IMG/VR virus record: IMGVR_UViG_3300037635_004282
Location: 1-59,526 of that record
Source: a virus
DNA length: 59,526 nucleotides
Reading direction: 5' to 3' (one strand)
This document shows positions 1 to 42,900 of the stretch, piece after piece (the first letter of the stretch is position 1; each line of letters begins with the position of its first letter). The notes beneath the pieces were generated by a model. That model was given only the letters and a program-made list of their open reading frames with translations. It was not told the DNA's origin and searched no databases. The position numbers and the translations under genes are program-made.

Positions 1-2
1 TC

Positions 3-3000
3 GATGCCAACTTCATGCATCGAGTCGAAGTGACCGCCCTCGCTGGCAGTGGCAAAACCAAGTTGTTGGAGGCTAATCTTCAGGCTATCAGTCAGTATGT
101 CGAGATGCAGGACCAGTTTGGATTCAAGTTTAGTGAATCACCTGACTGGGAGACGGCACTGGATGACATGAAGGAACACAAACAATACTTCAACACCGAG
201 ACCGACAATGACCTCATCGACTGCTGGATTAGAAACATCCACGAGTCCACCGAGGATGTGTTCTTCGACATGGTTGACAAGGAGCAATACATCACCCACG
301 ACAACAAATACTTCGTCCAGTGCTGGATTGGATTGATGTCCAAGCCTGCAATGACAGCGAGGAAAGTGAAGGTCCAGTTGGAGACCGCTAGGAGGAACCA
401 TTTGGAGTTAGACGAGGCAGGTGCTGTGGACCTAGTTTCAGTCATGATGCTACTTTTCCTCCCACTGATCATGGTCGTCAAGGCTGTCCAGTATGCATCA
501 GCACTGGCTGACCAATACAGTGAGATGAGACATCCCGCTGAAGCACACAGAATCGATGAGGACATCCCTGAATTGCTTGCCTTTGGCGGTGGGGTTGACT
601 CCACAGCAATGGTCGCCATTCAGTGCGATAGAGACGCTGGATTCGCTGTTGTCAACAGCATCCTAGAGGCCAAGGGTCAACAGGGCTGGACCAGCGATGA
701 GTTTGATGAGATGTTCCCACCAGTTGAGCATGTTGTCTTCGCCAATACAGGTGCTGAATGGGACCATACCTATGCCAACATCGAGTATGCCAAGGTTCGA
801 TTGCAGGAGGCAGGAATACCGTTCACCATCGTCCACAACGAATACCGTGGACCGATTGATGATTACATCAAGGAGCGAGGCATTGTCCCGTTCTTCAATG
901 GTGGCAAGCACACCTGCTCCAAGATATGGAAACAGAAGCCCATGCAGGACTGGTCCAAGGAGACCTATGGCAAGGACACTGTGGTTCGCTGGGCTGTTGG
1001 CATCTCCTATGATGAGACGGCTCGTATGTCCAAGTTTAACGGCCTTGACAAGAAGGCACTTGACCAAGGTCAGGTCAGTCGTTTCCCAATGACCGACCTG
1101 ATGATGACTCGATACGATGAGCAACTGATCATCCAAGAATTGAATTGGTCTCCTGATGGTGATGTAGTCAGGCTCTCCGCCTGCTATCACTGCCCATACA
1201 ACACCGAGGAGGACCTGCGCCTCCTCCGTAACCATAACCCAGCACTGTGGACCAAGGCTGTCGAGATTGAGCAAGCATTCTTCGACAACAAGAACCATCA
1301 GAATTGGCTCGATGCTGGCAAGCCATTGAATGGTCGATGCAACAACCTAGTCGATGACAAGAAGTGCAACACCAAGCCAATTGCAGGTCAGGATGATTGC
1401 CTAGGCTGTGGGCAGGAATACAACGGTGTTCGCCGTGCGCCACATGGTATGTGGGCTGATGACTATGCTAACCGTGCCGAGGACCCACAGCGATTGATTC
1501 AACGCAATGGACCAACTGGTGGACTGATGTCCATGGAGGAATGGGGCAGTTACATCGATACAGGAATCACCCCTGCACCTCAAGGACAGACTACACTGTT
1601 CGATACTGGGTGCGGTGGATGTTCTAGCAAAGGACTTCTCTTCGATGACAGTGCATCTGTCTCGATCACTGGGATTTACTTCATGCTGTTCTTCATTCTG
1701 TGTGTGCCTTTAATTATGGTTATCAAGACGGTCCAACTGATGCACCCTATTCTAGTCAAACAATCTAGCGACATTACATCCAGCGATGACTCATCGTTTG
1801 AGACCTGTGGAGGCCAGTCAGCACCTGATGTTGATGGGTCCACCATTCAACTACACTACGCTGTCCCGTCCACCAACTGTGATGGATTCCCTCACAGTGC
1901 TGAACAGGCTGTGGGACTCAACCAACTGCATGATGGATTCATCCATTGGGCGGAGACAGGAGAGCCAGTGTGTCAGATTATCGAGGCCGTTGCAGGAAGC
2001 GGTAAGACCACTTACATCAAGTCGGTTGCCAAGATGATGGCTAACCTAGGACTGGGTTCATACCGTGTCATCCTCACTGCATTCAATGTCCACATTGCCA
2101 AGGACCTCAATCAGGTTGCTATCGACATAGGACCGTCTCTAAGCGGCTTCGTTAGGATGGGTGGCAGTAACACTGTCCAAGCGGCAGGACTGTCCGAGAT
2201 TCTAGTCCCTGCTGGCCTTCAGAAGGGCGTTGACATATCCGTCGATGGCTCCAAGGAGCGTAACCTCGCTAGAGTTGTCCTGTCTGATGCCATTGGTCAG
2301 TATTCGGAATACAATGACCTGATCAAACAGGGAACCCCTGACCAGCCTCAAAACTGGATTAGTGGTTGGTATGCTCATGCTAGTGCTTTGATGGACCTAG
2401 TGTCCTCGGTCAAGGACGATGGCCTAGACCCTCGTCTCGACTCATTCACTACTGACTTCAATGACTTCTTGAACCGTAAATCCAGCATCCTTAACTGGGC
2501 TGAATCACCACTGTTTACATTGAAGAAGTCCATCCTCGTTCAGATGATTACTCGATGCATCAAAGAGGGTCAGACTCTCGTATTCAATGCAGGAACCGCC
2601 CTTAGACCCGCCAAGGGTGCTAAGTCGCCCAATGGTGAGCGAGGATACAAGCGTGGGGTCCACACTTACACTGGTGGCCCCTTTGACAAGCAGGTTTCTG
2701 ACCGCATCAAGGCTGTCTGTCCTGAACCATCCAAGAAGGGTTCAGGCCGACGCAAGGTCGCCAGCAATGATGCAAAGCGCAGTGGATGCAAAGGAACCAC
2801 CAAGTCAATGATCGAAGGTGGACCAGTATTCGACATCAAGCGCATCAAGGCTAAGATGTTCGATGATGATGATGCTATGAATGAGTATCTAGCCTGTGAG
2901 GTCATCCTGCCTATGTTTGTCAGGTTCTCATCCTATGATGCTGGCAACGGCAATGTATCCCCTGACCATCAGAAGAAGTGCAGTGTCAGTGTCAACTCCA

Positions 3001-6000
3001 CATACCAACGCAACGGTGGCACATCAATCCGTGCGGCCATTGGTGACTTCGCCAAGGTTGGCAACAACGGCAATATGCAGAAGGCAAACATTGGAGGAAT
3101 CCACCGCTGGAAAATCACTGATGAGAAGTCGGCTAGGAGAGCAATGGCTGTCCTTGCACTGCACTTCGGCACTACTGCCAAAGGAGTCTATGTCAATGAG
3201 GCTGAAGTCGAGGAGTCCAAGGCGGAGAACCCAGTCGGTATCGTCTCCTTCGATGACATGACATACAGCCCATTCTATTACGACCTGCGACCACCACAGC
3301 CAGCGGTGCTACTGTGTGTCGATGAAGTGCAGGATTTGTCTGTATTGAAGGGCGATATGGTTCGCCGCTTTGCTGATGAATCCACCAATGTTCTGTTGGT
3401 CGGTGATCGTCGTCAGGCACTGTATCTGTTCGCTGGTGCTGATGGTGCGGCAATGACCAAGAATGCTCAAGCATTCAACTGTGAGCCATTGCCAATGACC
3501 ATCTGTTGGCGTAACAGCATCAAGGTGGGACAGAATGTCCACCGCATGATGACTTGGGCCACATCAGTAGCCACCAGTGGCGATGAGCCTGTGGACCTAT
3601 CCAAGACAGAAGTCCCAGCATATGCTGACCATCGCTGTCCTCCTATCGCTGACTGGCGTGAAGGTGCTTCTAGCATCAGGATGCCAGCACACCTCGTATC
3701 TCAATACATCGAGGCGGGAGACATCACTTGTAGCCGTGTGGTTGCACCACTGGCTAGAATCGCCATCAACACCCTGCGAGAAGGCAAAGCAGTTGTATTG
3801 CCAGCAGGCAATGACGGCATCGATGGACTTGTCAAGAAAATATGGACAGGCTCTCGACCAAAGTATTCAGGCAAAGGTCACGCTATCAAAGGTCTAGGAC
3901 TCCCTCAAACTGACAGTCAAGGCTCAAGAGACATTGCACATGATGCACCGTCTCAAGTATCCCTCACTGAAATCAAGAAGCGAGTCGATGATCTGTTGAA
4001 TTATGTTCGTAACAAAATAATCAGGGATGCTGGCAATGACCCCAAGGCTGTTGACAAGGACAACTCCTATCAGAATCTAGTCGATGAGACTGACTGTGTT
4101 ATGGCACTGGCTGAAGGATGGCTTGAACAGACTGGCAACATCAACCAGTCCAGCCGTGGTTCCACCATCCGTGCTGACCCAGCACTGTTCTTGAAGTGGC
4201 TAGACCAATTCCTAGGACAGACTGAAGGTCGCAATGGCGAGGACAGCATCAGGTTCGCTTCTGTTCACCGTGTCAAGGGCGCACAGGGTAAGAGGACCTT
4301 CATTGTCATGGACCGTATCCTCAAGGACAAAGAGGGCGAGGAGAGAGTCGTTGGTGCATTCATGCTACCTCATTGTATGACTACACCTGATGAGGCTGTT
4401 CAAGAATTGAATGCAGTTTATGTCGCCGCTACTAGGGCCATCGACCAAACGGTCCTCGTATCTCATGACAAGGACTTGGCTGAATTATTCCCCACCAAGG
4501 AGTCCTTCGACCTAGTTTGGCAGGCCGCTAACAGCGGTGATGACACACTGGTCGCAATGGCATACAAGAACGCTACAATGCCTGAAGCCGACAGGGTTGT
4601 AGCCCAGCCCAAGGTTGAGCAACTAAAGTGTGGTTCATGTGAAATCCCTCTCGATGCTGATGCTGATGTCGATGAATGTGTTACAGAAGGCTGTGACTCG
4701 ATCATGTGCAAAGAATACAGTGGCAGGGAGGCCAGCGGTCCAGCAGGTTGTGGTGTAGCGGCAACATTTGAGGACATGATTGACCGCACTGGCAATAAAA
4801 TATGCTTCAAGTGTTCCGATAAACAGCGTGAAGAGGCACTAGCCAAGGACGACGCTGAAGAGTTACCTCAAGACGCTATTGAAGCCGTTGACCCTAGAGC
4901 ATACACTGAAGAAACTGTTACCTATTCATGCAACAAATGCAAATACACTGTTCACCCAAGAGTCCGTGTGGATGGCACGCACAATGGAGGAGGCCGTTGC
5001 CCATATCGCCGGTCTGATGGATGTAGTGGCCACATGGAGATGGTAAAGGAGGAAGTGATCGACATTGCCAAGGCAATGGCGGATGCACAGTTTGAGATGG
5101 AGGCGAATGCTCATGTCTTAGAGAACCCAAACTTCTCCCAGCCTCCAACAATGCAGGAGAGGATGGACAAGGCAATGAAGGATGATGAGTCAGGTGCTAT
5201 CGATTTAGTGAGCATTTTTATGCTGATGCTGTTCCCTATCATCCTAGTGGTAAACATGGCTAAGAAGATAGTCCCAGCGTTCACATTGGCTCAAAGAGAA
5301 GCATTGACTGAAGAGGGTCCAGCATACTACACGAGCGACGATGATACAAAGAACCGTGTCATCAACGACAGGACCGCATTCAATCAGAAGACGGGGTTCT
5401 TCTTAGCATGTGAAGCATGTGACGAGTCTAAGTTTCATAACTTCACAGACAGCGAGAAGTATCCTCGACAGGCTCAACAAACCCGTTATCATAGTAACCC
5501 ATTCTCTAGGACTCGATCATTCAATGTTCACTGTGAATCATGTGGCGGTATCACCAAGCACCATAAGCAACCTAAGCCACCTGAATGGTCCCCTAAGTCT
5601 CTCGTTACCATTGAGAAAATGGGGACTCGACCTGAACAATGGGGCTTTGCACCAGTGAAGTTTCACAAGCAAAAGGTTGAGACTTTCAGCATGTGTGTGC
5701 ATTCACCAAACACTTACAGTGGGTCATACGGCCAAGGCAGTGGTCATATTGTCCCAGTGAAAGGATACGATAGAAGTAGCCGCTATTCTCGTGGCTCTCA
5801 ACTATGCACTTATGCTATCACCACCCACCTCTCCGAGGAGAGGCTAAAGAGGATGCCAACTAAGTGGACAAGGGACCGTAACTACACCATTACTGATGAC
5901 CTTCAGTCGTGCATGGGTTCAGGCGAATTGGTCATGACTATCACTGACAGGAATGAGGAGGAGTTGTGGAGACGACTACACCCAATGACTGATGATGACG

Positions 6001-6953
6001 GGAGAGTCCTTGACAAGTATGTCCCAAAGGTCGGTGACGAATGGGCCTTCAGGAGAAAGGTGGAGAAGGACATCGAAGCGTCATTTCATGTTCAACCGCC
6101 AAACCAGTCAATGACGAACCGTGCGATATTGTATCATCATTATGACCAACTCGATGAAGTAACACACACTGAAGTGATCAGATGTGAAACCAAGAGAGCA
6201 AAGCAGGAATTGAAAGACGGTGAATGGGTTGAAACAGAACCCGCTGAATACAGACCAGCATTGATTGTATATTTCCCATGCCCTAAGTGTGAAGGTGGCA
6301 AAGCGGAGGGATACTCCACCGTGAAGAGTAAGCAAACGATGAACAAGCGTAAAGTTGGTTTCGATGCTGATGTCGGGACTATCGGCAAATGGTCGAAAAC
6401 ACCCATGACTGTTGGTATTGTTCAATGGCCAAAGGATGATGATGGCAATAACATAGTCAAGTTTGACTCAAGGTTTCACCACCATGACTGTATGGTCTGT
6501 GGTAAACCACACATCAAGTCGGGTCTAGTGCCAGTCATGGCCACAGACGATGAGAAGGACTGGCATGGCATGTGGGTCGGTCAGGACTGTGCAAAGAAGT
6601 TTATGGGATTCATGAAGTTTACAGTGCCTGCGGATGCATGTAAGAAGTGTAATGGCCCTAAATCAAAAGGGATGCTGTTCAAAGAAGTCAGACCAACACC
6701 TTCTGTTATTGAGGACAATGACCTGTCTCAAGAGGAGGTAACTGACCAACTCCATGTAGTGTGGGGCTGTGCCACCTGTGGCAATGAAGGGACACATGAG
6801 GAGATGGTGATCGAGTATGACATGGAGACCTATGTCGGCAATGGCCATAAAGTTGAGACTGTCAACTCCAAGGATGTTGGCGAGAAAATCCGCTGGGTCG
6901 GATTAGACGGGTCCCTTGAATTGAACCCGCAGGAGAGAGTTACACCTGAATGA
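3..6953 (+). CDS. Giant multidomain ORF: P-loop stub, PAPS-reductase domain, UvrD-like SF1 helicase, cysteine-rich regions, three hydrophobic segments (5' partial)
   Basis: Open to the left edge of the window, so the true start may lie upstream. Residues below count from the ATG at 15. A Walker A (LAGSGKTK, 9-16) begins a P-loop stub that stops within about 120 residues. A PP-loop ATPase/PAPS-reductase-like domain follows (FGGGVDSTAM at 190, KHTCSKIWKQKP at 298, CYHCP at 390, CGGC at 533). A full UvrD-type SF1A helicase follows: AVAGSGKTT at 658, VDEVQDLS near 1102, GDRRQALYLFAGA near 1131, SVHRVKGAQGKR near 1416, YVAATRA near 1470. CxxC clusters occupy 1540-1660 and 1796-2260. Three similar hydrophobic segments separate the domains at 132-160, 544-573 and 1723-1751. 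No stop codon or frameshift was noticed at the junctions. The helicase call is strong and the PAPS-reductase call good. Whether the product stays one chain or is cut is unknown. Confidence 0.85.
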   Translation, partial: DANFMHRVEVTALAGSGKTKLLEANLQAISQYVEMQDQFGFKFSESPDWETALDDMKEHKQYFNTETDNDLIDCWIRNIHESTEDVFFDMVDKEQYITHDNKYFVQCWIGLMSKPAMTARKVKVQLETARRNHLELDEAGAVDLVSVMMLLFLPLIMVVKAVQYASALADQYSEMRHPAEAHRIDEDIPELLAFGGGVDSTAMVAIQCDRDAGFAVVNSILEAKGQQGWTSDEFDEMFPPVEHVVFANTGAEWDHTYANIEYAKVRLQEAGIPFTIVHNEYRGPIDDYIKERGIVPFFNGGKHTCSKIWKQKPMQDWSKETYGKDTVVRWAVGISYDETARMSKFNGLDKKALDQGQVSRFPMTDLMMTRYDEQLIIQELNWSPDGDVVRLSACYHCPYNTEEDLRLLRNHNPALWTKAVEIEQAFFDNKNHQNWLDAGKPLNGRCNNLVDDKKCNTKPIAGQDDCLGCGQEYNGVRRAPHGMWADDYANRAEDPQRLIQRNGPTGGLMSMEEWGSYIDTGITPAPQGQTTLFDTGCGGCSSKGLLFDDSASVSITGIYFMLFFILCVPLIMVIKTVQLMHPILVKQSSDITSSDDSSFETCGGQSAPDVDGSTIQLHYAVPSTNCDGFPHSAEQAVGLNQLHDGFIHWAETGEPVCQIIEAVAGSGKTTYIKSVAKMMANLGLGSYRVILTAFNVHIAKDLNQVAIDIGPSLSGFVRMGGSNTVQAAGLSEILVPAGLQKGVDISVDGSKERNLARVVLSDAIGQYSEYNDLIKQGTPDQPQNWISGWYAHASALMDLVSSVKDDGLDPRLDSFTTDFNDFLNRKSSILNWAESPLFTLKKSILVQMITRCIKEGQTLVFNAGTALRPAKGAKSPNGERGYKRGVHTYTGGPFDKQVSDRIKAVCPEPSKKGSGRRKVASNDAKRSGCKGTTKSMIEGGPVFDIKRIKAKMFDDDDAMNEYLACEVILPMFVRFSSYDAGNGNVSPDHQKKCSVSVNSTYQRNGGTSIRAAIGDFAKVGNNGNMQKANIGGIHRWKITDEKSARRAMAVLALHFGTTAKGVYVNEAEVEESKAENPVGIVSFDDMTYSPFYYDLRPPQPAVLLCVDEVQDLSVLKGDMVRRFADESTNVLLVGDRRQALYLFAGADGAAMTKNAQAFNCEPLPMTICWRNSIKVGQNVHRMMTWATSVATSGDEPVDLSKTEVPAYADHRCPPIADWREGASSIRMPAHLVSQYIEAGDITCSRVVAPLARIAINTLREGKAVVLPAGNDGIDGLVKKIWTGSRPKYSGKGHAIKGLGLPQTDSQGSRDIAHDAPSQVSLTEIKKRVDDLLNYVRNKIIRDAGNDPKAVDKDNSYQNLVDETDCVMALAEGWLEQTGNINQSSRGSTIRADPALFLKWLDQFLGQTEGRNGEDSIRFASVHRVKGAQGKRTFIVMDRILKDKEGEERVVGAFMLPHCMTTPDEAVQELNAVYVAATRAIDQTVLVSHDKDLAELFPTKESFDLVWQAANSGDDTLVAMAYKNATMPEADRVVAQPKVEQLKCGSCEIPLDADADVDECVTEGCDSIMCKEYSGREASGPAGCGVAATFEDMIDRTGNKICFKCSDKQREEALAKDDAEELPQDAIEAVDPRAYTEETVTYSCNKCKYTVHPRVRVDGTHNGGGRCPYRRSDGCSGHMEMVKEEVIDIAKAMADAQFEMEANAHVLENPNFSQPPTMQERMDKAMKDDESGAIDLVSIFMLMLFPIILVVNMAKKIVPAFTLAQREALTEEGPAYYTSDDDTKNRVINDRTAFNQKTGFFLACEACDESKFHNFTDSEKYPRQAQQTRYHSNPFSRTRSFNVHCESCGGITKHHKQPKPPEWSPKSLVTIEKMGTRPEQWGFAPVKFHKQKVETFSMCVHSPNTYSGSYGQGSGHIVPVKGYDRSSRYSRGSQLCTYAITTHLSEERLKRMPTKWTRDRNYTITDDLQSCMGSGELVMTITDRNEEELWRRLHPMTDDDGRVLDKYVPKVGDEWAFRRKVEKDIEASFHVQPPNQSMTNRAILYHHYDQLDEVTHTEVIRCETKRAKQELKDGEWVETEPAEYRPALIVYFPCPKCEGGKAEGYSTVKSKQTMNKRKVGFDADVGTIGKWSKTPMTVGIVQWPKDDDGNNIVKFDSRFHHHDCMVCGKPHIKSGLVPVMATDDEKDWHGMWVGQDCAKKFMGFMKFTVPADACKKCNGPKSKGMLFKEVRPTPSVIEDNDLSQEEVTDQLHVVWGCATCGNEGTHEEMVIEYDMETYVGNGHKVETVNSKDVGEKIRWVGLDGSLELNPQERVTPE
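408..494 (+). repeat. Hydrophobic segment 1 of the giant ORF
   Basis: Encodes residues 132-160. Acidic entry LDEAGAVDLVS, then a core of about 18 hydrophobic residues with a central proline (FLPLIMVVK) and a basic exit. It separates the P-loop stub from the PAPS-reductase domain. It closely resembles the third segment: both read E-x-G-A-[VI]-D-L-V-S followed by M-L-rich sequence and P-[LI]-I-[ML]-V-V. Confidence 0.75.
1644..1733 (+). repeat. Hydrophobic segment 2 of the giant ORF
   Basis: Encodes residues 544-573, between the PAPS-reductase domain and the SF1 helicase. Acidic entry DDSASVS, hydrophobic core, then VPLIMVIKTVQ. The exit closely resembles segment 1 (LPLIMVVKAVQ), while the entry has diverged. 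Again negative charge precedes and lysine follows. Confidence 0.7.
5181..5267 (+). repeat. Hydrophobic segment 3 of the giant ORF
   Basis: Encodes residues 1723-1751, between the helicase with its first cysteine clusters and the C-terminal cysteine-rich region. Entry DDESGAIDLVS, core with central proline (LFPIILVV), basic exit NMAKK. The entry is nearly the same as in segment 1, although codon choice differs. This indicates an old duplication or selection on the protein sequence rather than a recent DNA repeat. Confidence 0.75.
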
Positions 6954-6986: not shown

Positions 6987-7061
6987 GCAGGCGGGGTCAA
7001 TCAATACCTGTGGGGGTTTGGTTGTAGGCTTTGTATGTTGGCCTTCACCATCCCCGCCTGC
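6987..7061 (+). promoter_or_regulatory. Long-range 10-bp perfect inverted repeat in the gap after the giant ORF
   Basis: GCAGGCGGGG at 6987-6996 pairs perfectly with CCCCGCCTGC at 7052-7061, enclosing 55 bases. It lies in the 125-base gap between the giant ORF and the next gene, ending about 18 bases before the start codon. A transcript could fold with this stem. Possible roles are a termination, processing or leader structure; nothing proves one. A tRNA was considered and rejected because there is no D arm or T-loop consensus. Confidence 0.45.
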
Positions 7062-7078
7062 ACCTTGAGAATGAAGAG

Positions 7079-7570
7079 ATGATAATTATGGCAGAATATG
7101 TTGAGATAGAAATTGAAGAGATGGACCTTTTCCTAGGCGAAGAGGGTTTTGAAAGAATTGAACCTGACGCAGTGGGACACCCGTGCAAAGAAGCGGTGTA
7201 TGAACGCAGTTACGATGATTCAGGGTGTCGCATCCGAATCTATTCGTCTGTGGACATTCGCAATTCAGCAGGTCGCAAAGCAGGTTCAGACGCAATACGA
7301 GTCGTGCTGGTTGACCCTGAAGGATACCCTTGGAATAAATCATTCAAGCGTGTGCATCGGGTGGTGAATTGGCGTAACAACTTGTTACAGCGAATCAACC
7401 CAGTGATCGATGAGTATTGGAAATACCCATGGCAAGCACCTAGGGAATGCCCTAAGTGTCAAGGAGGAATACTCCGAACCCGCTGGGGCAAAAAAGGCCC
7501 ATTCATGGGCTGTTCAAACTACAACCCAACGGTGCGTGACTCATGTCGTAACACCGAGGCGGTCCAATGA
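7079..7570 (+). CDS. Hypothetical protein with C-terminal topoisomerase-type zinc ribbon
   Basis: About 163 residues from the ATG at 7079 (an ATG at 7088 is also possible). The reading frame extends upstream to a TTG without support. The N-terminal two thirds are acidic mixed alpha/beta and not recognised. The C-terminus reads CPKCQGGILRTRWGKKGPF-x-GCSNY...C, the pattern of the C4 zinc fingers found at the C-terminus of type IA topoisomerases, which bind single-stranded DNA. This suggests nucleic-acid binding. The stop overlaps the start of the next gene by 4 bases (ATGA), so the two are probably translated together. Confidence 0.8.
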   Translation: MIIMAEYVEIEIEEMDLFLGEEGFERIEPDAVGHPCKEAVYERSYDDSGCRIRIYSSVDIRNSAGRKAGSDAIRVVLVDPEGYPWNKSFKRVHRVVNWRNNLLQRINPVIDEYWKYPWQAPRECPKCQGGILRTRWGKKGPFMGCSNYNPTVRDSCRNTEAVQ

Positions 7571-8163: not shown

Positions 8164-9807
8164 ATGATGCCCAACGGACAACAGCCGATATTCATAATGC
8201 CTGAAGGAACAGACCGCACAAGAGGAAAGACGGCACAGGGTAACAATATCGCCGCCGCTAAAGCGGTTGCTGACGCAGTGAAATCAACACTAGGGCCTAA
8301 AGGAATGGACAAGATGCTAGTCAATGGACTAGGCGATGTCCTCATTACCAATGATGGTGCTACAATCCTGCGTGAAATCAATGTCGAACATCCAGCGGCC
8401 AAGATGGTCATTGAAGTTTCAAAGACTCAAGAAGCACAGTGCTTCGACGGGACTACATCAGCCGTTGTTCTCGCAGGTGCTTTACTCAAGGAGAGCGAAG
8501 CACTGATCGAAAAGAATGTGCATCCGACTGTTATCGCATCAGGATACCGTCTCGCATCGTCTAAAGCATTGGAAACTCTTGAGAAGTGCGTGCTTGACGA
8601 AAGACAACTGTCCAAGGTCGGTAAAGACCTAGGAGCCATTGCTAAGGTCTGTGCTGAAACAGCATTGACTGGCAAGTTTACTGATACTCACGAAGGAGTC
8701 AAGGATGTCATGTCAGGCATTGCGGGCGATGCCGTCAACAGATTGTCTGACGGGATAAACCCCCCAAACTTAGACGACATCAATGTGATATGTGCAACAG
8801 GTGGTTCAGTTGAAGACTCATACCTGATGGATGGAATTGTCCTAGAGAAGGAAAAGGCTCACAACGGAATGCCAACAGCAGTTGACGGAGCCTCGCTTGC
8901 ATTGGTTGACTTTGCTATTGAAGTTAAGAAAACTGAAGTCGATGCGAGAATCCAAATTACAAGTCCTGATCAAATGCAAGACTTCCTCGACCAAGAAGAA
9001 ACAGCCCTGCGAAACATGGTGAAGAAGTTTCAGGATGCCGGAGCAAATGTGGTTCTATGTCAAAAGAAGATTGATGACCTAGCCCTGCATTACATGGCTA
9101 AGGCTGGCATCATGGCATTACAGTCATGTCGAAAGTCCGAGTTGTCATCAGTCGCAAAGGCGACAGGTGCTGTTGTTATCAGTGACCTTGATGACTTAGT
9201 TGATGCTGACCTTGGTTCCGCTGGACATGTGATTGAAGAACGAATTGGTGAGAACCTGATGGTTCGTATCGGTGGCGTGTCTGAAGTTGATTCAAGGGCG
9301 GTCACAGTCATCCTGCGTGGTGCAACCACCCATGTCGTTGAAGAGATTGAAAGAGCCTTCGATGATGCGCTTGGAGTAGTGTCTCTAGTCATCAACACCT
9401 CACAGATTGTCGTGGGCGGCGGATGCACATTTGCGGCAATGGCGAAGAACCTGCGTGAATATGCCAGCACTGTTGCTGGTCGAAAGCAGATGGCTATCGA
9501 AGCATATGCCAAGGCACTTGAAGAGATTCCTTCGACCATTGCTGAAAACGCAGGCATGGACCCAGTTGATTCGATCATCGCTTTGAGAGCGGCACACGCT
9601 AACAGCGCATACACCCACGGAATCCTCGTTACAGATGAGGAGACCGACCTTCTAGTTGACAACCTCCTCCACTATGGAGTGGTTGAACCATTGAGCGTAG
9701 TCAAGCAGGCCTTGATTAGCGCAACTGAAACCTCGACCATGATTCTCCGCATCGATGATGTAATTCAAATGCGTCAAGCGGGGCCTCAAGGCTCACCTAT
9801 GATGTGA
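8164..9807 (+). CDS. ths: Group II chaperonin (thermosome subunit)
   Basis: 547 residues, the usual length of an archaeal thermosome/CCT subunit, which forms double-ring ATP-driven folding chambers in the cytoplasm. Motifs: [11 protein letters not shown] at 42, NDGAT at 63, [12 protein letters not shown] at 94, FDDALGVV in the returning intermediate domain, GGGC, GMDPVDS. The three Mg/ATP aspartates expected for hydrolysis (in NDGAT, DGTT and DDAL) are present. Oddities: the normal GDGTT motif reads FDGTT, the GGGA-x-E motif reads GGGCTF, and the tail ends QGSPMM without Gly-Gly-Met repeats. Start is ATG 8164 or 8167, with 8167 better spaced from GGAGG. A virus-borne copy may fold viral structural proteins or replace host rings. 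Confidence 0.97.
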
Positions 9808-10714: not shown

Positions 10715-12397
10715 ATGATGAGTCGAAAGTTGATTAAAGAGAGTGCTGAAGAGATGGATAATATCCCCGCTGAATTGGGTCCTGCGTTGAAAATGCTAGG
10801 AACAATCCTGCAAGAAGAATACATGAGTCGTGATGGGGTTTACCTCAATACAACCGAGCGTAAAGACAACCCCCAGCCTATTGCACTTGTCGATGATACT
10901 GTCATCACAGTCAGGGTGGGTAACAAGCGCATTACAATGACTCCATCTGATGCTGACAAACCAGCCGTCCTGATACCAGTCGGTATGAGTGACAAAAGAA
11001 ACACATGCTCGATCCCTAGAGACTGGGCTACTGGTGTTTGGGTTGATGCATTGATTGAAGCATTCGATGGAGACCCATCAGTAGCATTTGCATTTGCTGA
11101 AAGAGTCAATACAGCCATTGACCTTGCTATGGTGGTCGATGAAGAGACTGGCAAAAAGTCAGTCAAGCAATCTGACCTCCCGACTCATCGTCATGCTGTT
11201 GAAGTGGCTGAAATCCTTGAGTCGTTGAAGCGACACTTTGAGGGTCAGTCGGCAGGTTCACCAAAGGTCAACATGGACTTCACCATTGAGGAGATTGGTG
11301 CAACACCTGTTGGGCCAACTGCTGAAGAAGTTGAGATGGCTAATGAATTGGCTAAACTACAACGCACCGAGAAGGTCTTGAACACCCTCGTTCCTAATCC
11401 CAATGTAACACCCACGCAGGAGACCCCTCCTGTGGCACAGGATAATGTCATCCCCGTTGAGGCATCCCATCCCGAAACTACCGACCCTGTGCCTGTTGTA
11501 TTGGAGGAGGAAACCACCCCAGTTGTTGAAGTGGAGGACACTGTGGATTCTGAACCTATTCTAGGCGTTACTGGTCATCCTGAACATATTGAACACTTGA
11601 TCATCGAAGCAATCAACACTGCTGATGAAGCCAATGATGGACCTGATGGACAGGTCGGCCCCACATGGGGTCAATTGAAGAAGACATTGAGTGACCACAC
11701 CCTCCGTTATGTGGACACGCCTGATGACATCAGGGATGCACGCAGGTGCTTAGACAAACTTGTCAAGCACGGCCTAGTCAACAAAGAGGGCGCACGAAGA
11801 AGCACACGCTATTACCTGACTGGTTCAGGGCTTGAGTTGCTGGTCGGAATGCCATTGCCTGATGTCATCAGTCAAGACCTTGAAGAAGTCTCAATGGCCC
11901 CTAGCGGGGATTCCGCTGTGGCTGTATCACATGAGCCTCATATCAACGCTGAAGCAGGTGGCATGTCCATGTGGACTAATGACCCTGAAGTGGTCCAAGA
12001 AGTCAAGGACGAATGGGATGCGATCATTGCTGACAGTGAACCTTGGGACGGACATGTCGAGGACACCTTTGCTAACAACCCTATGCCTATGGCTGTTATA
12101 CCGCACACAGGCTGTGCTAACTGTGACAAGCCGCATAAGTTTGTTTACGAAGACCTCCCAGTAGGCCCACGCAGGTTCTGTTCTGAAAAGTGCCTATGTC
12201 ACTATGCCGCCCTAGAATACAAAGGCGAAGGGTATTACATCGAGTCATTGCGAAACCAACCGATGGGTCACTTTGAGGCCCCAGTTGATGAGCCAGTGGA
12301 TGAAGAACCCGTTCCTGTGGCTGGTCCTGCCAGCATGGACACTGGGACGGCTGATGACCCTGCTATGGATTACCTTGGACTAGGAGGTGGTTTCTGA
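10715..12397 (+). CDS. Large winged-helix and zinc-finger protein, possible regulator
   Basis: About 560 residues; ATGs at 10715 and 10718 follow AAGGTGAG. The N-terminal 190 residues are globular and unrecognised. A Pro/Glu/Thr/Val-rich acidic linker spans roughly 230-300. Around 319-375 (TWGQLKKTL ... CLDKLVKHGLVNKEGARRSTRYYLT) there is a winged-helix-like pattern with a basic wing. Near 466-495, CANCDKPH ... RRFCSEKCLCHYA resembles a treble-clef (FCS/TRASH-like) zinc finger. First gene of the long operon, which suits a regulator of early expression. Family not identified. Confidence 0.85.
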   Translation: MMSRKLIKESAEEMDNIPAELGPALKMLGTILQEEYMSRDGVYLNTTERKDNPQPIALVDDTVITVRVGNKRITMTPSDADKPAVLIPVGMSDKRNTCSIPRDWATGVWVDALIEAFDGDPSVAFAFAERVNTAIDLAMVVDEETGKKSVKQSDLPTHRHAVEVAEILESLKRHFEGQSAGSPKVNMDFTIEEIGATPVGPTAEEVEMANELAKLQRTEKVLNTLVPNPNVTPTQETPPVAQDNVIPVEASHPETTDPVPVVLEEETTPVVEVEDTVDSEPILGVTGHPEHIEHLIIEAINTADEANDGPDGQVGPTWGQLKKTLSDHTLRYVDTPDDIRDARRCLDKLVKHGLVNKEGARRSTRYYLTGSGLELLVGMPLPDVISQDLEEVSMAPSGDSAVAVSHEPHINAEAGGMSMWTNDPEVVQEVKDEWDAIIADSEPWDGHVEDTFANNPMPMAVIPHTGCANCDKPHKFVYEDLPVGPRRFCSEKCLCHYAALEYKGEGYYIESLRNQPMGHFEAPVDEPVDEEPVPVAGPASMDTGTADDPAMDYLGLGGGF

Positions 12398-12693
12398 TGA
12401 AGGACTTCAAGCCGGTCATTGGCACAGCGGCCTCACGCAACAAGTGGTTGCCAGCACGACTACGCATTGAGCCAAAGTTTGTCCGTCTGACGCAGGTCAA
12501 TGGACACACGGGCATGGTTATCCTTGTTCGGATTTCATCTATCATCTCAATATCACCTATGACATTGGACCCGCTTGAAGGGTCGTTTGTTATGCTCGCT
12601 GGCGACCAACGCCCAATCAAGGTTTCAGAACCATACGGAATGATCGCTAGTAAACTTGGAATCAAAGCAGTAGTATCTGTGGAGGAGGAGTAA
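12397..12693 (+). CDS. FlbD-like small beta protein
   Basis: 98 residues, starting on the last base of the preceding stop codon (TGATG). The core FVRLTQVNGHTGMVILVRISSIISI ... GSFVMLAGDQRPIKVSE follows the FlbD/YopX-like small-barrel pattern: L-T-x-x-N-G, then I-x-x-I, then G-x-x-I-x-V-x-E. Such proteins are common in phages but of unclear role. Fold assignment moderate, function unknown. Confidence 0.8.
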   Translation: MKDFKPVIGTAASRNKWLPARLRIEPKFVRLTQVNGHTGMVILVRISSIISISPMTLDPLEGSFVMLAGDQRPIKVSEPYGMIASKLGIKAVVSVEEE

Positions 12694-32733: not shown

Positions 32734-35700
32734 TTACTTGACCACATATGGCCTGCTCTTGGACATTCCTATCGGTAACGCCCTATATGTGTTGGCAGGG
32801 TCTATCGCCTTTCGGACTCCAATTTGACCCTTTGAGTTGATTATCGACGCACGATGTCCAATGGTCATTCTTGTATTGTTGTTACTTCTAGTGACTATCC
32901 TGTGGACAGTAATCAACTTGACACTAGATGAAAGGGATACCGTGATCGAGTCTTGACTCACTAATTCCTCATTCCCCGCCGAGTTGCCAATGCTGGCCTG
33001 TAAGTCTGAAAGAATGCCGGATATACCTTTTTCGTATTGAGCGATAACAAAATCACTTGTTCCGCTTTCATAGTTATGTGTTGTTTCAAACACTGCAAAA
33101 AGACCTTTCAGGCCGTGCGTGGATAAGTCCACGCTGATTACATCGCCGGGGTGGACTGAAGTTGCATTGACCATGCCGATAACCCTTATCATTGGCGCAC
33201 CATTTTCAATTCGTGATAGTAATGACTTTGCGAGCCTGATAGCGGTCTTTCGTGTTTTCAAGCCGGGGACTTCTTGAGTATAAGACCGGACTACATTCTC
33301 ATCAGAACCAGCACCCGCTTGTAATTTCATCCGCTCAATGTCTTTGACTTCAACCAATACGCTTTCGTTCTCGGCTATTTTGTCCCCCTTGACGGCTACT
33401 ACATTCGGTGAGTCGAACATTCTGCTGACTACAATATCTCTAGCACCACTATCCGCACCTATTCGCTTTCCTGTTTCTTTGAATACCTGACTTGAATACA
33501 GTAATACGCCTGATGCTGTATTGATCAGTTGATTGCCATCTATCTGTGAGGAGTTACGAATCACCTCCAATATATTCAAACCACGAGTATTTCTTGAAAT
33601 GAAATTGTTGCTATGTTGCATTATATCCGTTAAGCAGGGGTGTCCTCCAATAGCGGATGGAGACACCGATGTTTGAATCATAGTCGTGTCTTTCAAGTTG
33701 AAACCAGCGGAGGATGAAGAGGCATCATTGAGTAAAGTCATTACAGCGTCTGTTGTTCTTATTCCGATAGTAGCATACTGGCCTGCAAAGACATTGCCCA
33801 CTTCAAGACCGGAGTCGGTCAGGGTCAACCCATCCATATTCTTGAAAGTCACATATTTGCCACCAAGGTCGTCTTTTACCTTGTCAACCTTCCACCTTTG
33901 CCCTTCGCTATCGAATATGTAAGGCGGGAAAAAGTTGGAGGTTACTTCTCTTGAGTCTATCATTAGTTTGTTGCTTCTATCGGTGGCACTAATTCGACCT
34001 TGATTAGGACCATCCTCGATATTGAAGGTTCTTTGAGTCATCATAATGAAATCGTCGGGGTTATATGTCGTCAGGCCTTTATACGACAATCCGGTTCTTG
34101 TAGCGGATGTTCCATCGTGCTTATACAATGAGGTGGCTTGATACTCCGACAAAACAATAGCGTTGTCGATCAATGAAGGGAGAAGAGGATAGGTCTTGGT
34201 GAGGCTTATGGTGGCTTGTCCAAGCGAACCATCGGATACGGGGTATCTCTTTGTATTAGTGCTTGCTGAAGTCCCAAATGTCTTTCTTGCATAAAACAGG
34301 GTGGTCCCATCCCAAGTATGTCCAGCAGGCAGGTCCCCATTCGTTAGTAATGGCGATGTATTAGCAACAACGCTTATGCTCAATATATTTTTGTTCTTTG
34401 AGGTATAATGTATTGAACCTGAATACCCCGGATACACTAGGTCTCCTGAATCAGGCAACATTGAGGCATCTCTAACAACCATGTAGTAATCAGAACCAAT
34501 CGAGTAGTATCGTTTTATTTCAACACGATTGTAATTCCTGTTTCCGTCGATATACTGCTTTCTGACAGCCTCGTTTGGCCTTTGTTGAGCCGCATGGTCT
34601 CCGCCAATGTTTGATGATGAGTCGGAGTATCTTGTTTCACTTTGACTGATTACTTCAAAACCTCCGGGGTGTGTCGATTGGGAATAGCGTGGTTCAATTT
34701 GAGAATATACCTGACCATCGGGGTCAATTCTGTTTGCATCTGATTTGAAAAACTCAAGCATTGCTGTTGAAGGAATGAGGTGATACACTACATCATGATT
34801 ATTTGGGTCCGGCCATTCAATGACAAACTTATCAGCCGCTGACATGATCGGTTCCGTCATACCTTGAGGCTTGTTCATATTCAATTCAAAAATACCGTAT
34901 CTCTTGTCTCTATGATAGAAGTTGTCGGATGGCTGGGAGAGGTCGCCCGTATCTAGCGGCAATGGACCCAACATGTAGCCGTCCTGTCCAAGTGCGGCTC
35001 CATTTGGGGCGAAGGGATACATTTTCGATGGTCTAAATGGCCTCACTATGTAATCAACAAATGTCCTTGTGGGGTGTGATGTTGACCCTTTGGTCCCTGA
35101 AACCGCAAGAGTATTGCTCACTGTTGAAAGACTACCTTCACTTTGACGATTCAAATAGGTTTTTCTTAGAATGAATACACCACCCCAAGGCGGTAAATCA
35201 GCCCCTCCTCGGATGTTCCATATATCGTTAGCACCAGCAAATGGCGATGCCTTGATAGTGTCTGATATGGCATCAGGCTCACCCTTTGAATCATTATTAT
35301 CGACTGAAAAAATTGGTTTGTCGCCGTAAAGAATGTCTGTTGTGTGAGGGGTATTGGAGACCGTGAATGGGACTCCAACCGTCCCTAATGTATTACATTT
35401 GACCGCCGTTCTCAACTTATTCATGTATGAGGGGGTGATTGGGTATTGCTGTCCAACCATTAAATCAGAATGCAAAGAAGCCGCCTTTGTTGAGGTAATC
35501 AGATAATTGCTATTCTTTTCAATTGTTTCTTCTTTAGTGGTTGTAATGATCAGACCCATCCTAGGCTCGGACCTTGATGATACCTGCCTATGGTCGGCTA
35601 TTTCAGCGAGCGGTGTGGGCAATATGTCCTGTCCTGCTGTCAAAGACGAGTCATAACCCCAGCCACTAGATGGGAATGAACCAGTTGCTAAGGCATCATT

Positions 35701-38700
35701 GGAGTTGGTATGTAGCGCATTGCCTATGAGATGCCAAGCCGACCCAAAGTTTGTCGTTTGAACAGTAGCAATCGAATCTGAACCAGTCCCAGTTTCATCG
35801 AAAGACGGGATTAAGGGGTCGCCTCCTTTACTAAGAACCGGCACTTGATTCAAGGCGGTATGAGCCGCATTATATTCATCGACCCACATACCGGCGGGCA
35901 TGTGAACCGGCTTGAAAACACCAGCGGATTCCAAACCAAAAGAACGACCAATCCCTAAAGGTTCATCACTAAATGAGGTAATTGGTTCGTTACTAAGCCT
36001 GCTATTGTAGGTCATAGGGCTTCCTTGAATGGTGTGTCCTGATAAAATAATGCCAATAGGAGAAGACCTTTCAACACCCCCAACATCCGTGTTACTCCAC
36101 ATATATCCGGGGTATGTTGCGGCTAATGCCACCGAGTCATGTTGGCCCCCATCAAAACGACCTTTACCAAAGATAGAACCCTGTGAAGTTTCAGTCTCCA
36201 TAGGGTCTCCCGCTAACATGTCAACTGCATTCGATGCTGTTCTTACTCCCCAAGCACGAACAGGTAAACGCCTTCCATGATCAAAACCAACCATTGGTTG
36301 TAGTCCTAGATACAGTTGATGTTTGATATTGAAGCCTGAACCTTGTTTCACACTATATTTTCCAAGTGTAGTTTTGTAGGGGTTTATGCTGTCTCCAATT
36401 CCTTCACCACGAGTATATCTCTCCCCGTTGTAAACTTTGGGCAACATCATGGTTCCTCTTGCTTCTCTTACGGTTGTATTACCCATCATGACCGCTGAAC
36501 CGGACTCCAAAGTCCCCACGCCATGCCCGCCCGCATTCAAGCCGTTAAACCCGTATGACTGAAGCCACTGCAACGCATATATGCGCTCAAACTTCTGTGC
36601 TGGCCTCATCTGACCATACCTGTAATTAGGATTTGGCGCACCTGCTAGTAAGTCAAAGATTGACTGTGCGGTGTATGATGTTCTATTGATTTGTTCTGTT
36701 AAATCCAACCTTGAATGGTTTCTCAAAAGCAAACCTCTTGTTGCAGGGAATTGCATTGCTCTTGGCATACCGGCTTCACGGTATCTGAACATCATAAAGT
36801 GTTCACGGACAGAACCCGTTATTGCCGGATGTCCGTATTCAGCGAGCCAGTGGCATAGGAACGCATCAGGTTTCGCACCAGTATTCGTGTCCGTTTCTTT
36901 CAAAATCCCCCTGTCCCATTCAGAAGCAAAATCGATAGTCATCATGTTAGTGTAATCGGGGTCGTGAACAAACAAAGGTGGGACTGTTGCTAATTCGGTG
37001 GCAACACGGGGGTTAATCCAGCCCCATTCGCTACCTCTTACAAGGTATTGAACCTCTTCATAAACGGCTGGCAGTATATTTGAAGTCGCAGGGTCATGCA
37101 TGTGTTTTAGCAGTCGAGTCATAGCCGGTTCAGGCCTGCCCCCTGACAATTGATAGTCACCGATCATGAAACCATTGACCATCATTTCTGATGCGGCGGT
37201 ATAACGGTTCCTGAAATTAGGAATATGGAGATTCCCATCGGTGTATTTGAATTGAATATCCGTTGCCGAGGAAATGCCTGAAACAGATAAATCGGTGACT
37301 GGCTCACCAAATGCGACCTGCTCAACAAATCCTTCAACATTAGTATGTTCCTGACCCGGTGCGATCAACCAATCAATCTGTTTACCATCTTGGTTATTGA
37401 ATTGGTGTGCATATGCCGCTAACAAAACAGTCTCACGGGTTTCACGGCCATAACCAATAGTCGCTTCTTCTAATGGCAATCCATCAGCGGAGAATGAACC
37501 AGTCGCTCCCGCATATCCAGCAACTCCTTTCAATTCAATACTGTCCAAAGCAAACTTTGAGCCTGCCGCACCTGATGCTGGTGGTTTAGCCTGTTGAAAT
37601 GCGTGATGTTTGTTCTCGGTTTCAGCCTCAAACATCAGCGTGTATGCTGAACCATGACTTCTATGCAATTGTCGTCTCATAGCAAAAGGAGTGCCTCTAT
37701 GAGTCAAGGGGGTTACAAATGAATGCCCCTGCCTCCCAAACCTCAACCTAGCATGTGGGACCGTAAGCGGCTGGACCGCACCATTCGCTGTCATTGGCAA
37801 CACGGAACCTCTTTCAGCGTGGTCTGTAATCCGATGTGCGGAGTATATCCTAGTGGTTCCACTGGGGACCGCACCGGGCGTTATATCCGTAGCAATTCCC
37901 TGTGTTGAAACCATATCGGGGTGTAGTAAACGCTCACAGTGAAAAATCAACATGCGGTCATGTGTATCGAATTGAGATACATGCCCCTGTTCTATTGCTC
38001 CCTCCGTCGCAGTATTACGAACCCCTAACTCTCCCTCGTCCCTGCCATACAAAGTAGCAACTCTTGACATGAAAGTTGATTCCAAATGGCCGGGGTCGTG
38101 TTCTTCAGGAGGGGCAATTCCACCCATCCCCCATGTTTTGTTTGAATGTGCTTGAATGCGGTCATGAGATGACCGGACAAATATACCGCCCGGTATCTCC
38201 TCCGCCGAAGGCAATGTAAGCCTCAAGTTTGGAGTTGACTTTCCATTGCTTGATGACGGGCCAATCCGTTCCTGACCAGTTTCACTATCAAAAGACTGGT
38301 TTTCAACAACAAAATCCCTGATTACTGTTCCAAAGGGCGAACCTCCGGGCAAAACAAGAACCGCACCTGAATCATCAACGACTTCAATGTCTTCAAAGAC
38401 CATTTCTTCATTTGTGATGGTGAGTCCTTCAACTCTTTCTGTGTTGATCGGGCGTTTTACGAAAAATGGTTGGCTATATTTAGCCCCTGTTTCGCCAGCA
38501 TAACCTGAAGATGCTTGGTCATTGATGAGGGTTAAACGAGCGGCATCAAGAGCGGAGTTGTCGGTTATACCTGAAAGTCTATCAAAGCCATCACCATTTT
38601 CTAATTGATTTGAATTAGTTGCGCCTTCGTTAATCGTTTTACCTTCATAAAGCACTATGTTCTTTTGATTTACATCAGTTGAAGTCGGTTGCTTTGTCCC

Positions 38701-39984: not shown

Positions 39985-39986
39985 AT

Positions 39987-42900
39987 TTACCACACTAACC
40001 TAGATGCATACAATCCTTGCGCTTCTAAAACCGTAAAAGCACGGTCCCACACGCCAATATGGGCCAGCGAACCATTCTTCAGGAATATCGGACCCACATC
40101 GTTATGACCATCGGTGGCCGGAACAACTTGAGGAGTCCCATAAGTCGAGGAGCCAATAACGCTCGGAGCCTGATCGAAATAGTGAGACCCATTATGGGGC
40201 GCACCGTGTAAGGCAACGCCAACAGTAGCCATGCAATTCCCCCTGACACCTTTCGTAGGGTCAACTGTCGATGGTTGTCCGTTTTCCAATGGGACATAAG
40301 GATGGTCAGCAACTCCCTCGGATGTTGGTGAGCCTTGATGTTCATGCCGAGGGTATTTTGAGCCACCTGATGTTGTTGTGCGACTATTTGGTGCAGTGCC
40401 ATCATAGAGAGCATCTTGGTCTGTCACCAAGAACGCCGATAAATCAACTCCGTCGATGATCAATTTACAAGTAGCCATTGACAAGCCTGATTGGTTGCCG
40501 TCATGAACGAAAACACAGTGATGCCATTCATTATTTGTAATGTATAACGGCGAACCTCCGTGAGCGGCCATATATGCGGCAACATCAACATATGCGAATC
40601 TAGGTTGGCCGCTGGTTAAATCGGCATAGTGCAACGCAAAGTTGTATTCTTGATTCAAAGCCGAGGTATTTGCACCCCCCATCGAAACCCCCCAAGGTAA
40701 ACCACTCGCATCAATTCCGTGAATTATTGGCCCTGACATCGCATCCGGTCCACCATTTATTGACATAAAAAAGAATGAAACTGTAAATGGCTTCGACGCT
40801 GATAGCGGCCTATTCACCTCGGATGAAATCTCGCCTCCAATTCCACTTCTAGGCCCAAGGTGAGGCAGGGATGCAAAGGCCTCTCCGACACCCGTATTGT
40901 CCCAGTCATGACACACCAAGTATGGGTATCCGGTGGTTGGCCATGGCCCCGCACCTGTATGTCCTATGAATTGAATAGGCCTAAACTTAGTGTGGCCTGT
41001 GGGCGAAGTTGCTGTCAGCGTTGCTTTTCCTGCGGGAACGCTTAACTTTTGATAACGACCATAAATCTCCTCTTTTAACACAGTTTCATCGTTTTGAGGA
41101 TATGCCGCAGTGTATTCAGTCGTGTAACTCGCCGCATAGGGCAACGGGTTCTCTTCGACCATTGAAAGGTATAACAAGCAATCGTCAATAGGTTGACCAG
41201 TGGATGGTCTTATTCGTGATTTATGATGCAACCCTATGTATGAGTTTTCATTGATCGTATCGTGGTCTTTAATCAGCGTAAAGTCGAGGACCGCTGAAGC
41301 CTTATTCGTTTCATGTAAGTTTTGCATTCCTGCGAAGCCGGTGGGACCTTTTGAGTAGTGATGCCTGTATGAGTCGCTATAATCGTTTGAAGAACCATCG
41401 CTGACATCGACCATCACCCCCGTATGCCCGCCTCCAAAGAATAGGATTCCTTTTGAGTTGACCAATGGCCAAAGTATCTCCACGCTCAATCCTAGAGCGT
41501 CTGTTTCAACCCCTAAACTGTCTTTAATGAATAGACTGTCGTAAAACTTCTCAATTTCAACCCATGGGGTGATATTTCGCAGGAGAACGCCATTTGTAAT
41601 TCTCAATCCTTTGTTGCTCAACTGACTAATTCCTTCAAACCAAAACATCCTGCCATTTACCCTGCCAATCCCTCTATTTGCCGCACTGATCTCCGAGCCA
41701 AGCGTCAGAAGGCCTTCATATGCACGATTATCAACAGCGATATAGTCTATCGGGGGGGAGTTGGCGGCATTGAAACCTGCCAATGCGTGAAGACTCCCAA
41801 ACATCGTCTGTCCGGTTGTAGGCCTTCTTGGGACCACCATTTTGATGTAATCGCCTGTTATTGTCGTGTCCTCGTCATCATCACTAAGAGTCGGTTGAAT
41901 CGTTGTTGTTACAATTGTTTGGCCGACCCCTGTATAAGACCGAATCTGCTCGTTATATGGTGAAAGTAAACGCCCATGAGACCCGCCGGTAAATGTAGTG
42001 ATAGGAACAAAGGTTTCACCATCAGAACCGATTGGTAAAGGTGCAGGGAATGAGTTTGCTTGATAATGAAGGCTATTTGTCGCCAATAGACCCCCTGAAC
42101 CAATACACGCAACCGGCTGATAGGGGTATGGGCTTCTGTTATCCAACCATATTGCGAAGTTACGAGCCGTAGCCCCCGGTATGGTGCTGTGAATTACAAT
42201 TGTTTTGCCCTTTTCGCCGTTTCGACTTTCAACTTCTTTACCTTCAAAAGCCCTCACATAGCCCATATGAGAGCCGGTGTTACCCTCTCCAAGGTGGTCG
42301 AGGTCGAAATGATTTGGTGCGTCAAAAGCACTGAACCCGATGTCGTTTTTAGCGGCGGGGTGAGCCGCCAAGTTGATTTTTCTGATTACTTCATCAAAGC
42401 ATGAATTGAAGTCCTTCTTTGTAGTTGCTATTCCATTGAAATCTAAATCCATAGGCCTAATGTATTTTGTTGAAAGTCCATCGCTAGATTTGCCTTGAAG
42501 AGACAAAGCCGATGGTTTACAATCGACACCCAAAACCAGCGGGCGATCAGAAAAGGAATACAACGCCTCATCGCAATCATAATCAAAAGCCTCCATAGAA
42601 GGAACCCCTCTTAGCCAATACTTGTTCACATTTGTCTCGTCACGAGTAATGTCTTGGCCCCCTGTTGCTGAAACTCCCCGTCCAAACAAAAACCCAATTT
42701 TATGTGCAATTGAATAAGCGATGTCCTCCTTTGTATGAGAATTGTGAGCCGAAACCGCTAGATTCCACGAGTCTGTTGCCAAGGAGGTCATACAAACATA
42801 ACCGCCTAAGACAACAGTCATCCCCGGAGTAATGTCATTCAAACTCGCCGCCGCAATTGACGATGCCTCCGTTATACGGTCTGTTTTTGACATCGACCAA

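Follow-up and report, generated by a model that had tools for sequence, protein, structure and literature searches.

What do look-alike hydrophobic segments do at the junctions of a viral reading frame that joins a helicase, a PAPS-reductase-like enzyme and zinc-finger-like units? The window, by which we mean the whole 59,526-base virus record analysed here (G000), opens with such a frame. An earlier note had described one ORF with three look-alike hydrophobic segments; we confirm this, and in a related record, G003, the complete frame proves larger, with 3528 aa and five copies (S1-S5), of which the window retains S3-S5 and two more lie upstream. We propose tentatively, at somewhat less than even chance, that the segments are short, proline-hinged anchors that would hold one fused multi-enzyme chain on the host membrane. 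The features are as follows.

3..6953, + strand: giant fused ORF, 3' part; 2316 aa in the window, 5' end cut at the record's left edge
3..407, + strand: end of unit C; P-loop ALAGSGKTKLL at 36-68, then a stretch without recognised function
408..491, + strand: hydrophobic segment S3, sequence LDEAGAVDLVSVMMLLFLPLIMVVKAVQ
495..1643, + strand: unit D, PAPS-reductase-like PP-loop protein; PP-loop 573-611, ACYHCPY 1179-1199, Cys-rich end 1605-1643
1644..1736, + strand: hydrophobic segment S4; four residues longer, most divergent copy
1737..5180, + strand: unit E, UvrD/Rep-type SF1 helicase; P-loop 1977-2015, DEVQD 3309-3341
4626-4952, + strand: cysteine-rich, zinc-finger-like stretches of unit E, 3' of the helicase
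5181..5267, + strand: hydrophobic segment S5
5268..6950, + strand: unit F; 561 aa, six CxxC motifs, no recognised family
7031..7570, + strand: gene 7031, downstream of the giant ORF; in 6 of 7 loci with a free helicase, a homologue lies downstream of it
8164..9807, + strand: thermosome gene, the basis for tracing relatives and the likely host group

The giant frame is not an assembly artefact, because it is under selection: dN/dS between the window and G003 is 0.178 over 2303 codons. G001 (L002, IMGVR 3300010150_000033) shares its first base with the window and is the same virus type, since only 2 of 16,950 positions differ, and G003 (L004, IMGVR 3300021197_001557; 107,132 b) is a distinct virus with 90% identity across the window's first 12.4 kb, in which the complete frame takes up 9.9% of the record. 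The earlier note had reasoned that stop codons at the segments in relatives would betray an artefact; none lies inside the frame in G001 or G003. Although contigs do break within the giant gene, it is hardly credible that stop codons between genes were lost in assembly or sequencing, given the same open frame in a second record of this virus type and in a distinct virus. A third record, G002 (L003, 97,368 b), is 99.98% identical to the window over the compared 10.9 kb that begin at window position 6009, and at its opposite end it matches G003 up to a point some 330 bases from the start of the giant ORF; assemblies thus tend to break within this gene. Breaks inside or just before it are seen at window 1-27, L002 1, L003 1 and the end of L017, and the window's first 27 bases, which do not align to G003, are likely a variable or recombining spot.

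Constraint differs along the frame. The PP-loop and helicase units have a dN/dS of 0.095, the cysteine-rich stretch together with unit F 0.16, and the end of unit C 0.41; pooling the three segments gives 0.31, though their 107 codons hold just 6.2 synonymous and 6.8 non-synonymous changes. Synonymous divergence is patchy, with dS of 0.14-0.19 across the PP-loop and helicase units against 0.68-0.89 over the cysteine-rich stretch and unit F, which suggests recombination. DNA divergence is low at S5, with 5 differences in 40 codons, a value equalled by 4 of 644 windows; this hints at exchange at the segments, though unit F has other low patches. S3-S5 are known from two distinct viruses, and S1, S2, units A and B, most of C and the N-terminus from one contig (G003), where the complete protein carries, close to its N-terminus, a signal-like stretch and a second hydrophobic one.

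Unit E matches phrog_1967 at E 2.9e-36 as well as a Pfam family, and its P-loop and DEVQD motifs, together with a UvrD fold, place it among SF1 UvrD/Rep helicases. In a Foldseek search of the helicase model, PcrA, RecB, UvrD, AddA and Rep were the best solved structures, at E about 1e-11 with TM-scores of just 0.2-0.5. The earlier note had proposed comparing related genomes for the domains as separate genes, and the comparison bears the idea out: elsewhere the helicase has a gene to itself, and so does a PAPS-reductase-like protein belonging to the same broad family. At least 12 other virus records carry the SF1 helicase free-standing, namely G007, eight of 33 searched (G011, G014, G016, G019, G021, G025, G026 and G028), and G189, G190 and G191, which the helicase search itself located; in G189 and G190 the gene is truncated at the start of the record. 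That search returned 52 loci, most of the others being weaker or partial and left uncounted, as was an edge fragment in G006. Complete free helicases measure 913-1730 aa. They are homologous to unit E but stand alone, with no junction segments, PP-loop unit or N-terminal units; the segment profile, run on 11 of the 12 free-helicase records, found no match, and the helicase ORF of G014 lacks any hydrophobic stretch above 1.9. In L126 the free helicase opens 45 residues ahead of its P-loop, and S4 ends 83 residues before that of unit E. At the other end, the free helicase of L149 (G011) closes with the same cysteine-rich finger that unit E has after its helicase; this end corresponds to a point about 118 residues short of S5, so L149 offers no free counterpart to what remains of unit E.

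Two of the free helicases, L177:4582-8772 (G016) and L178:4636-8406 (G191), begin with a hydrophobic, signal-like leader, MIFS(I/V)IA..., whose start lies directly 3' of a ribosome-site-like word, GGAGGTG; in G016 (L177/L123) the helicase start overlaps the stop of the preceding gene. Such a membrane leader is in itself unusual for a helicase, and since these two genes stand free, a membrane link of the helicase may recur outside the fusion.

The neighbourhood suggests that the chain grew around an older helicase gene. A homologue of gene 7031 follows the free helicase in six of the seven loci examined (L032, L118, L123, L126, L128 and L132; it was not found in L133), directly downstream and overlapping the helicase by 4 bases in L118 and L132, and the thermosome follows as in the window in L118, L123, L126, L128, L132 and L133. 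In G007, G014 and G028 the arrangement is opposite to that of the window, the helicase lying about 10-12 kb downstream of the thermosome. Because the giant ORF occupies the helicase's place before gene 7031, units A-D were probably added before the helicase and F after it. An older SF1 helicase gene around which other enzymes became fused would best explain this pattern.

Unit D matches phrog_424 (E 3.3e-26), an SspD model (E 3.2e-7) and the BrxP defence model; its Pfam PAPS_reduct match stays under that family's own cut-off (16.6 versus 22.5 bits). With both a PP-loop and a cysteine motif, it can be assigned to the PAPS reductase/PP-loop proteins. A gene of the phrog_424 family stands free in five of 16 records (G016, G021, G025, G028 and G191), all of which also carry a free helicase. 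That family model, however, also hits 14 of 14 control genomes, and a direct search with the fused protein at E 0.001 reported no free PAPS-reductase gene in the four of these five records that it covered; for both reasons the free genes may represent another branch of the family. Among the four free PP-loop proteins that were read, three start 11-13 residues before the PP-loop and the fourth, L233, whose match has a stop inside the matched stretch, up to 30; S3 ends 31 residues before the PP-loop of unit D, about 18-20 residues before the start point of three of the four. Six phage homologues start 0-29 residues ahead of the region matched to unit D, and three of them (L226, L229 and L231) have a Cys-rich tail of the same kind as that of unit D, which directly precedes S4. 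In the available text of one study (PMC10853773), SspD is equated with DndC, the PP-loop enzyme of DNA phosphorothioation, and passages of Xu et al. 2023 (PMC10160649) place cysH among magrovirus genes, as sulphur metabolism. Either role, DNA phosphorothioation-type or sulphur metabolism, appears possible for unit D.

Units A, B, C and F gave nothing better than about E 0.01 against Pfam, NCBIfam, PHROGs and defence-system models, and we treat their weak matches (FGase, thymidine kinase, CcmA and AAA_35 among them), at about that value or worse, as noise. No relatives of these units were found in the phage collection or among the fetched viral loci, the whole-record searches for unit relatives having been run with the units other than A, and a viral_contigs pattern scan with units A-C found G003 alone. 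The structure model of unit F is unusable (pLDDT 28). Unit C carries a second P-loop, resembling that of the helicase (window 36-68; L004 7844-8653), with no other helicase motif recognised, and is possibly a remnant of a duplicated helicase start.

The five segments are homologous repeats with a common entry motif and an invariant proline. Mean Kyte-Doolittle hydropathy over 19 residues is 2.55-2.69 in S3-S5 and 2.55-2.75 across all copies; S3-S5 are the sole stretches above 1.6 in the window ORF, and among the other listed + strand ORFs only 12397-12693 has one (1.68). Chance hydrophobic stretches are ruled out by block-wise shuffles that keep the hydropathy profile: nine of the ten segment pairs outscore all 1000, and the score of S4-S5 was reached by 4 of 1000. 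In alignment A1, whose eight rows come from two viruses, a single Asp and a single Pro are invariant. The entry motif, as read from the alignment, is D-(D/E)-x-(S/A)-G-A-(V/I)-D-(L/I)-V-S in S1, S2, S3 and S5 and conservatively changed in S4. The same four copies have a 16-residue uncharged run from the Asp to the first Lys (Asn in S5), with the Pro at position 11, and S4 has a run of 25 residues, long enough to span a membrane; the residue before the Pro in the five segments is Leu, Leu, Leu, Val or Phe. By the estimate of a simple insertion scale, each of the five could enter the membrane as a spanning helix, at -0.8 to -2.6 kcal/mol. With the segment profile at E 0.01, G003 gives five matches and 17 further tested records give none, the covered part of G002 beginning past S5. 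A pattern scan of viral_contigs recovered only G003 and G001 (109 stretches matched the pattern and three, at two loci, were confirmed). As a host motif the segment is not credited, with weak partial matches in 4 of 145 Poseidoniales genomes (best E 0.008, with an internal stop) and, in six further Poseidoniales genomes, none better than E 0.019.

The earlier note placed the segments exactly at domain borders, which holds broadly: S4 comes immediately after the PP-loop unit, S3 lies close to the start point of free PP-loop proteins, and S4 ends about 38 residues before the free helicase start of L126, but the distance from the helicase end of L149 to S5 breaks the exact fit. These free homologues rule out the segments as parts of the helicase or PP-loop folds. 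So, more weakly, does structure prediction, which the note had named as a check and which gave an answer of low confidence: in a model of the helicase plus S4 (12 sequences, mean pLDDT 57.6, pTM 0.52), helix 13-47 holds most of S4 (residues 6-36; pLDDT about 49-64), pLDDT falls below 50 at 37-62, and the rest follows. The weak model thus suggests that S4 is a separate helix ahead of the helicase. The note had also read an acidic entry and a lysine exit into each segment, and had argued from this charge orientation that an uncut chain could not span the membrane at every segment and still keep its ATP-using DNA enzymes in the cytoplasm. All five are indeed more acidic before the core than after it, with net charges over the 20 residues on either side of -5/-1, -1/0, -2/0, -1/+1 and -2/+1, but because the exits are near neutral over 20 residues, the charge rule is a weak guide to topology and the paradox is softer than claimed.

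We propose that complete enzymes were fused around the older helicase gene of a tailed virus and that similar hydrophobic elements, copied into the junctions, came to serve as membrane anchors. Each element would dip into the membrane from the cytoplasmic face. The helicase, the PP-loop enzyme and the zinc-finger units would thereby remain in the cytoplasm and near one another at the membrane, most likely at an early stage of infection and in the service of replication or sulphur-type DNA modification; cutting of the chain would be unnecessary. Several observations fit membrane anchors of this kind. The repeats sit at the junctions and nowhere else in G003, and in four of the five the run of 16 uncharged residues has its Pro at position 11; pairs of a branched residue and Pro may favour re-entrant helices, according to the available part of PMC6133551. 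The units between segments have their own ends, and the helicase and a PAPS-reductase family gene occur free in the records named above. The hydrophobic leaders of L177 and L178, each after a ribosome-binding-like site, also speak for anchoring, and the frame belongs to the + strand block, the capsid genes being coded on the other strand; no peptidase was recognised in any unit. Against re-entrant anchors, the model of S4 is an unbroken helix rather than helix-break-helix, its uncharged run could span, the entry is acidic where that of PglC's re-entrant helix is basic, and the insertion scale allows all five as spanning helices. The conserved ten-residue entry motif also exceeds an anchor's needs, and the pooled dN/dS of the segments is above that of the helicase and PP-loop units, few though the changes are.

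The cut polyprotein and the peripheral insertion between which the earlier note had hesitated both stand as readings. In the first, the main rival to our proposal though one we consider rather doubtful, this would be a polyprotein of a tailed dsDNA archaeal virus, its six units joined by copies of one element that acts as both junction mark and membrane anchor. Division just before each segment would give every enzyme its own N-terminal anchor, with the N-tail out and the enzyme in the cytoplasm, all oriented alike at the inner side of the host membrane. Conservation of the entry motif at S1, S2, S3 and S5, with conservative change at S4, would suit a junction mark, the excess of acid before the segments fits separate N-out/C-in chains, and what lies between segments are complete proteins. 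The candidate proteases are one of the host's or, if packaged, the virus's S78 prohead protease, which G003 encodes next to its capsid gene. No peptidase, however, was recognised in the units (A, B, C and F being orphans with no recognised relatives) or, by Pfam, in a selection of 53 other G003 ORFs, and to our knowledge polyproteins are rare among prokaryotic viruses.

Separate, N-terminally anchored enzymes like those of L177 and L178 could also arise as part of the product if ribosomes initiated just before some segments, which we judge improbable. AGGAGG with an in-frame start lies directly before S2 (L004, ATG 7706) and S3 (window, TTG 402), AGGAG precedes S5 in both the window and L004, and the mean best site strength at the eight segments exceeds that at random places (p 0.012, post hoc). 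Yet the pattern was found after the fact in two viruses that are not independent, and how many sites rank as strong varies with the cut-off (p 0.18, 0.06, 0.08 and 0.002 at -5, -6, -7 and -8 kcal/mol). Moreover, neither virus has a start codon in the tested zone at S4, the sites at S1 and at S3 of G003 are weak, and equally strong sites occur elsewhere in the ORF. An unlikely alternative dispenses with the membrane and makes the segments contact helices that pack the units, multimerise the chain or bind capsid proteins for packaging. Conservation beyond mere hydrophobicity would favour such contacts, but the hydropathy is very high, the segments flank different folds, and the profile is silent in the free-helicase records searched. 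Weighing these points, we retain membrane anchors on an uncut chain as our preferred, if tentative, reading.

Polyproteins of eukaryotic RNA viruses likewise hold several enzymes in one frame with hydrophobic stretches at the borders. The present case differs in belonging to a dsDNA tailed virus, in having no recognised protease in the chain and in using copies of one element as borders; units complete and known apart elsewhere are D and E only. Also close in kind are the polyvalent proteins (Iyer et al. 2017, PMC5512222), in which one viral chain combines unrelated catalytic domains including a helicase, with 2-15 domains per polypeptide; a helicase, a PP-loop unit, cysteine-rich stretches and units of unassigned function bring the giant ORF within that range. 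None of the domains shared by polyvalent proteins (ArdC-N, MPTase, LPD domains, SNF2 helicase-methylase) was recognised here by Pfam, NCBIfam or PHROGs. In the portion of the article available, its authors liken polyvalent proteins to polyproteins and describe those above 1,000 aa as almost all bacterial, with a paucity in archaea; its main text uses 'transmembrane', 'TM helices' and 'TM segment' 0 times, whereas repeated segments mark the present chain. Re-entrant helices such as those of PglC and caveolin, as far as PMC6133551 was available, share with our segments a Pro within the hydrophobic stretch and an enzyme on one face of the membrane. They differ in that positive residues precede the PglC helix, whereas the entry is acidic here and five copies occur per chain, and re-entry of the present segments is proposed from sequence. 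Phage PAPS-reductase-like proteins (phrog_424), distantly SspD/DndC-like, have the same PP-loop and CxxC arrangement as unit D but are free genes, whereas unit D lies between two segments.

Our literature search on polyproteins of archaeal tailed viruses, Poseidoniales viruses or phages, on helicase and PAPS genes of Poseidoniales viruses, and on archaeal polyvalent proteins, found no description among the titles listed, although an earlier mention is possible. Prokaryotic viruses usually encode such enzymes as separate genes. Since related viruses offer both a separate and a fused helicase for comparison, it becomes possible to test how a polyprotein-like architecture originated, and the locus suggests that some archaeal tailed viruses may hold replication or DNA-modification enzymes on the membrane.

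The host is probably an archaeon of the Poseidoniales, because the best cellular matches of the thermosome (best 80 matches) are Poseidoniales and marine Euryarchaeota MAGs, at identities up to 56%, and because all 18 genomes in one clade of viruses presumed to infect Marine Group II carry thermosome genes, according to the consulted part of Nishimura et al. 2017 (PMC5332604). L041 (CALDQY010000296.1), filed as a Rhodobiaceae bacterium, has a Poseidoniales-like thermosome, 55% identical to the query, and is probably a binning error. The + strand block of the window runs from the giant ORF through to 29237, thermosome included, and 29386-59393 is coded on the - strand; the - strand block of G003 contains genes for an SU10-like capsid protein, the S78 prohead protease and terminase. 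Two adjacent giant - strand ORFs of the window, 32734-39993 (2419 aa) and 39987-45857 (1956 aa), probably encode tail proteins; the second has a weak Laminin_G_3 match (E 0.0016, under cut-off), and both are otherwise unrecognised by Pfam. Just 5' of the giant ORF, between divergent gene blocks, L004:4210-4630 is noncoding and contains near-repeated TCATATGACA-like words, which make it a candidate promoter or origin; an Rfam search of L004 3800-15300 gave no match. The G003 ORFs of alignment A8 include matches to PD-(D/E)XK, an ERCC4-type nuclease, HMGL-like and pyrimidine-dimer glycosylase families.
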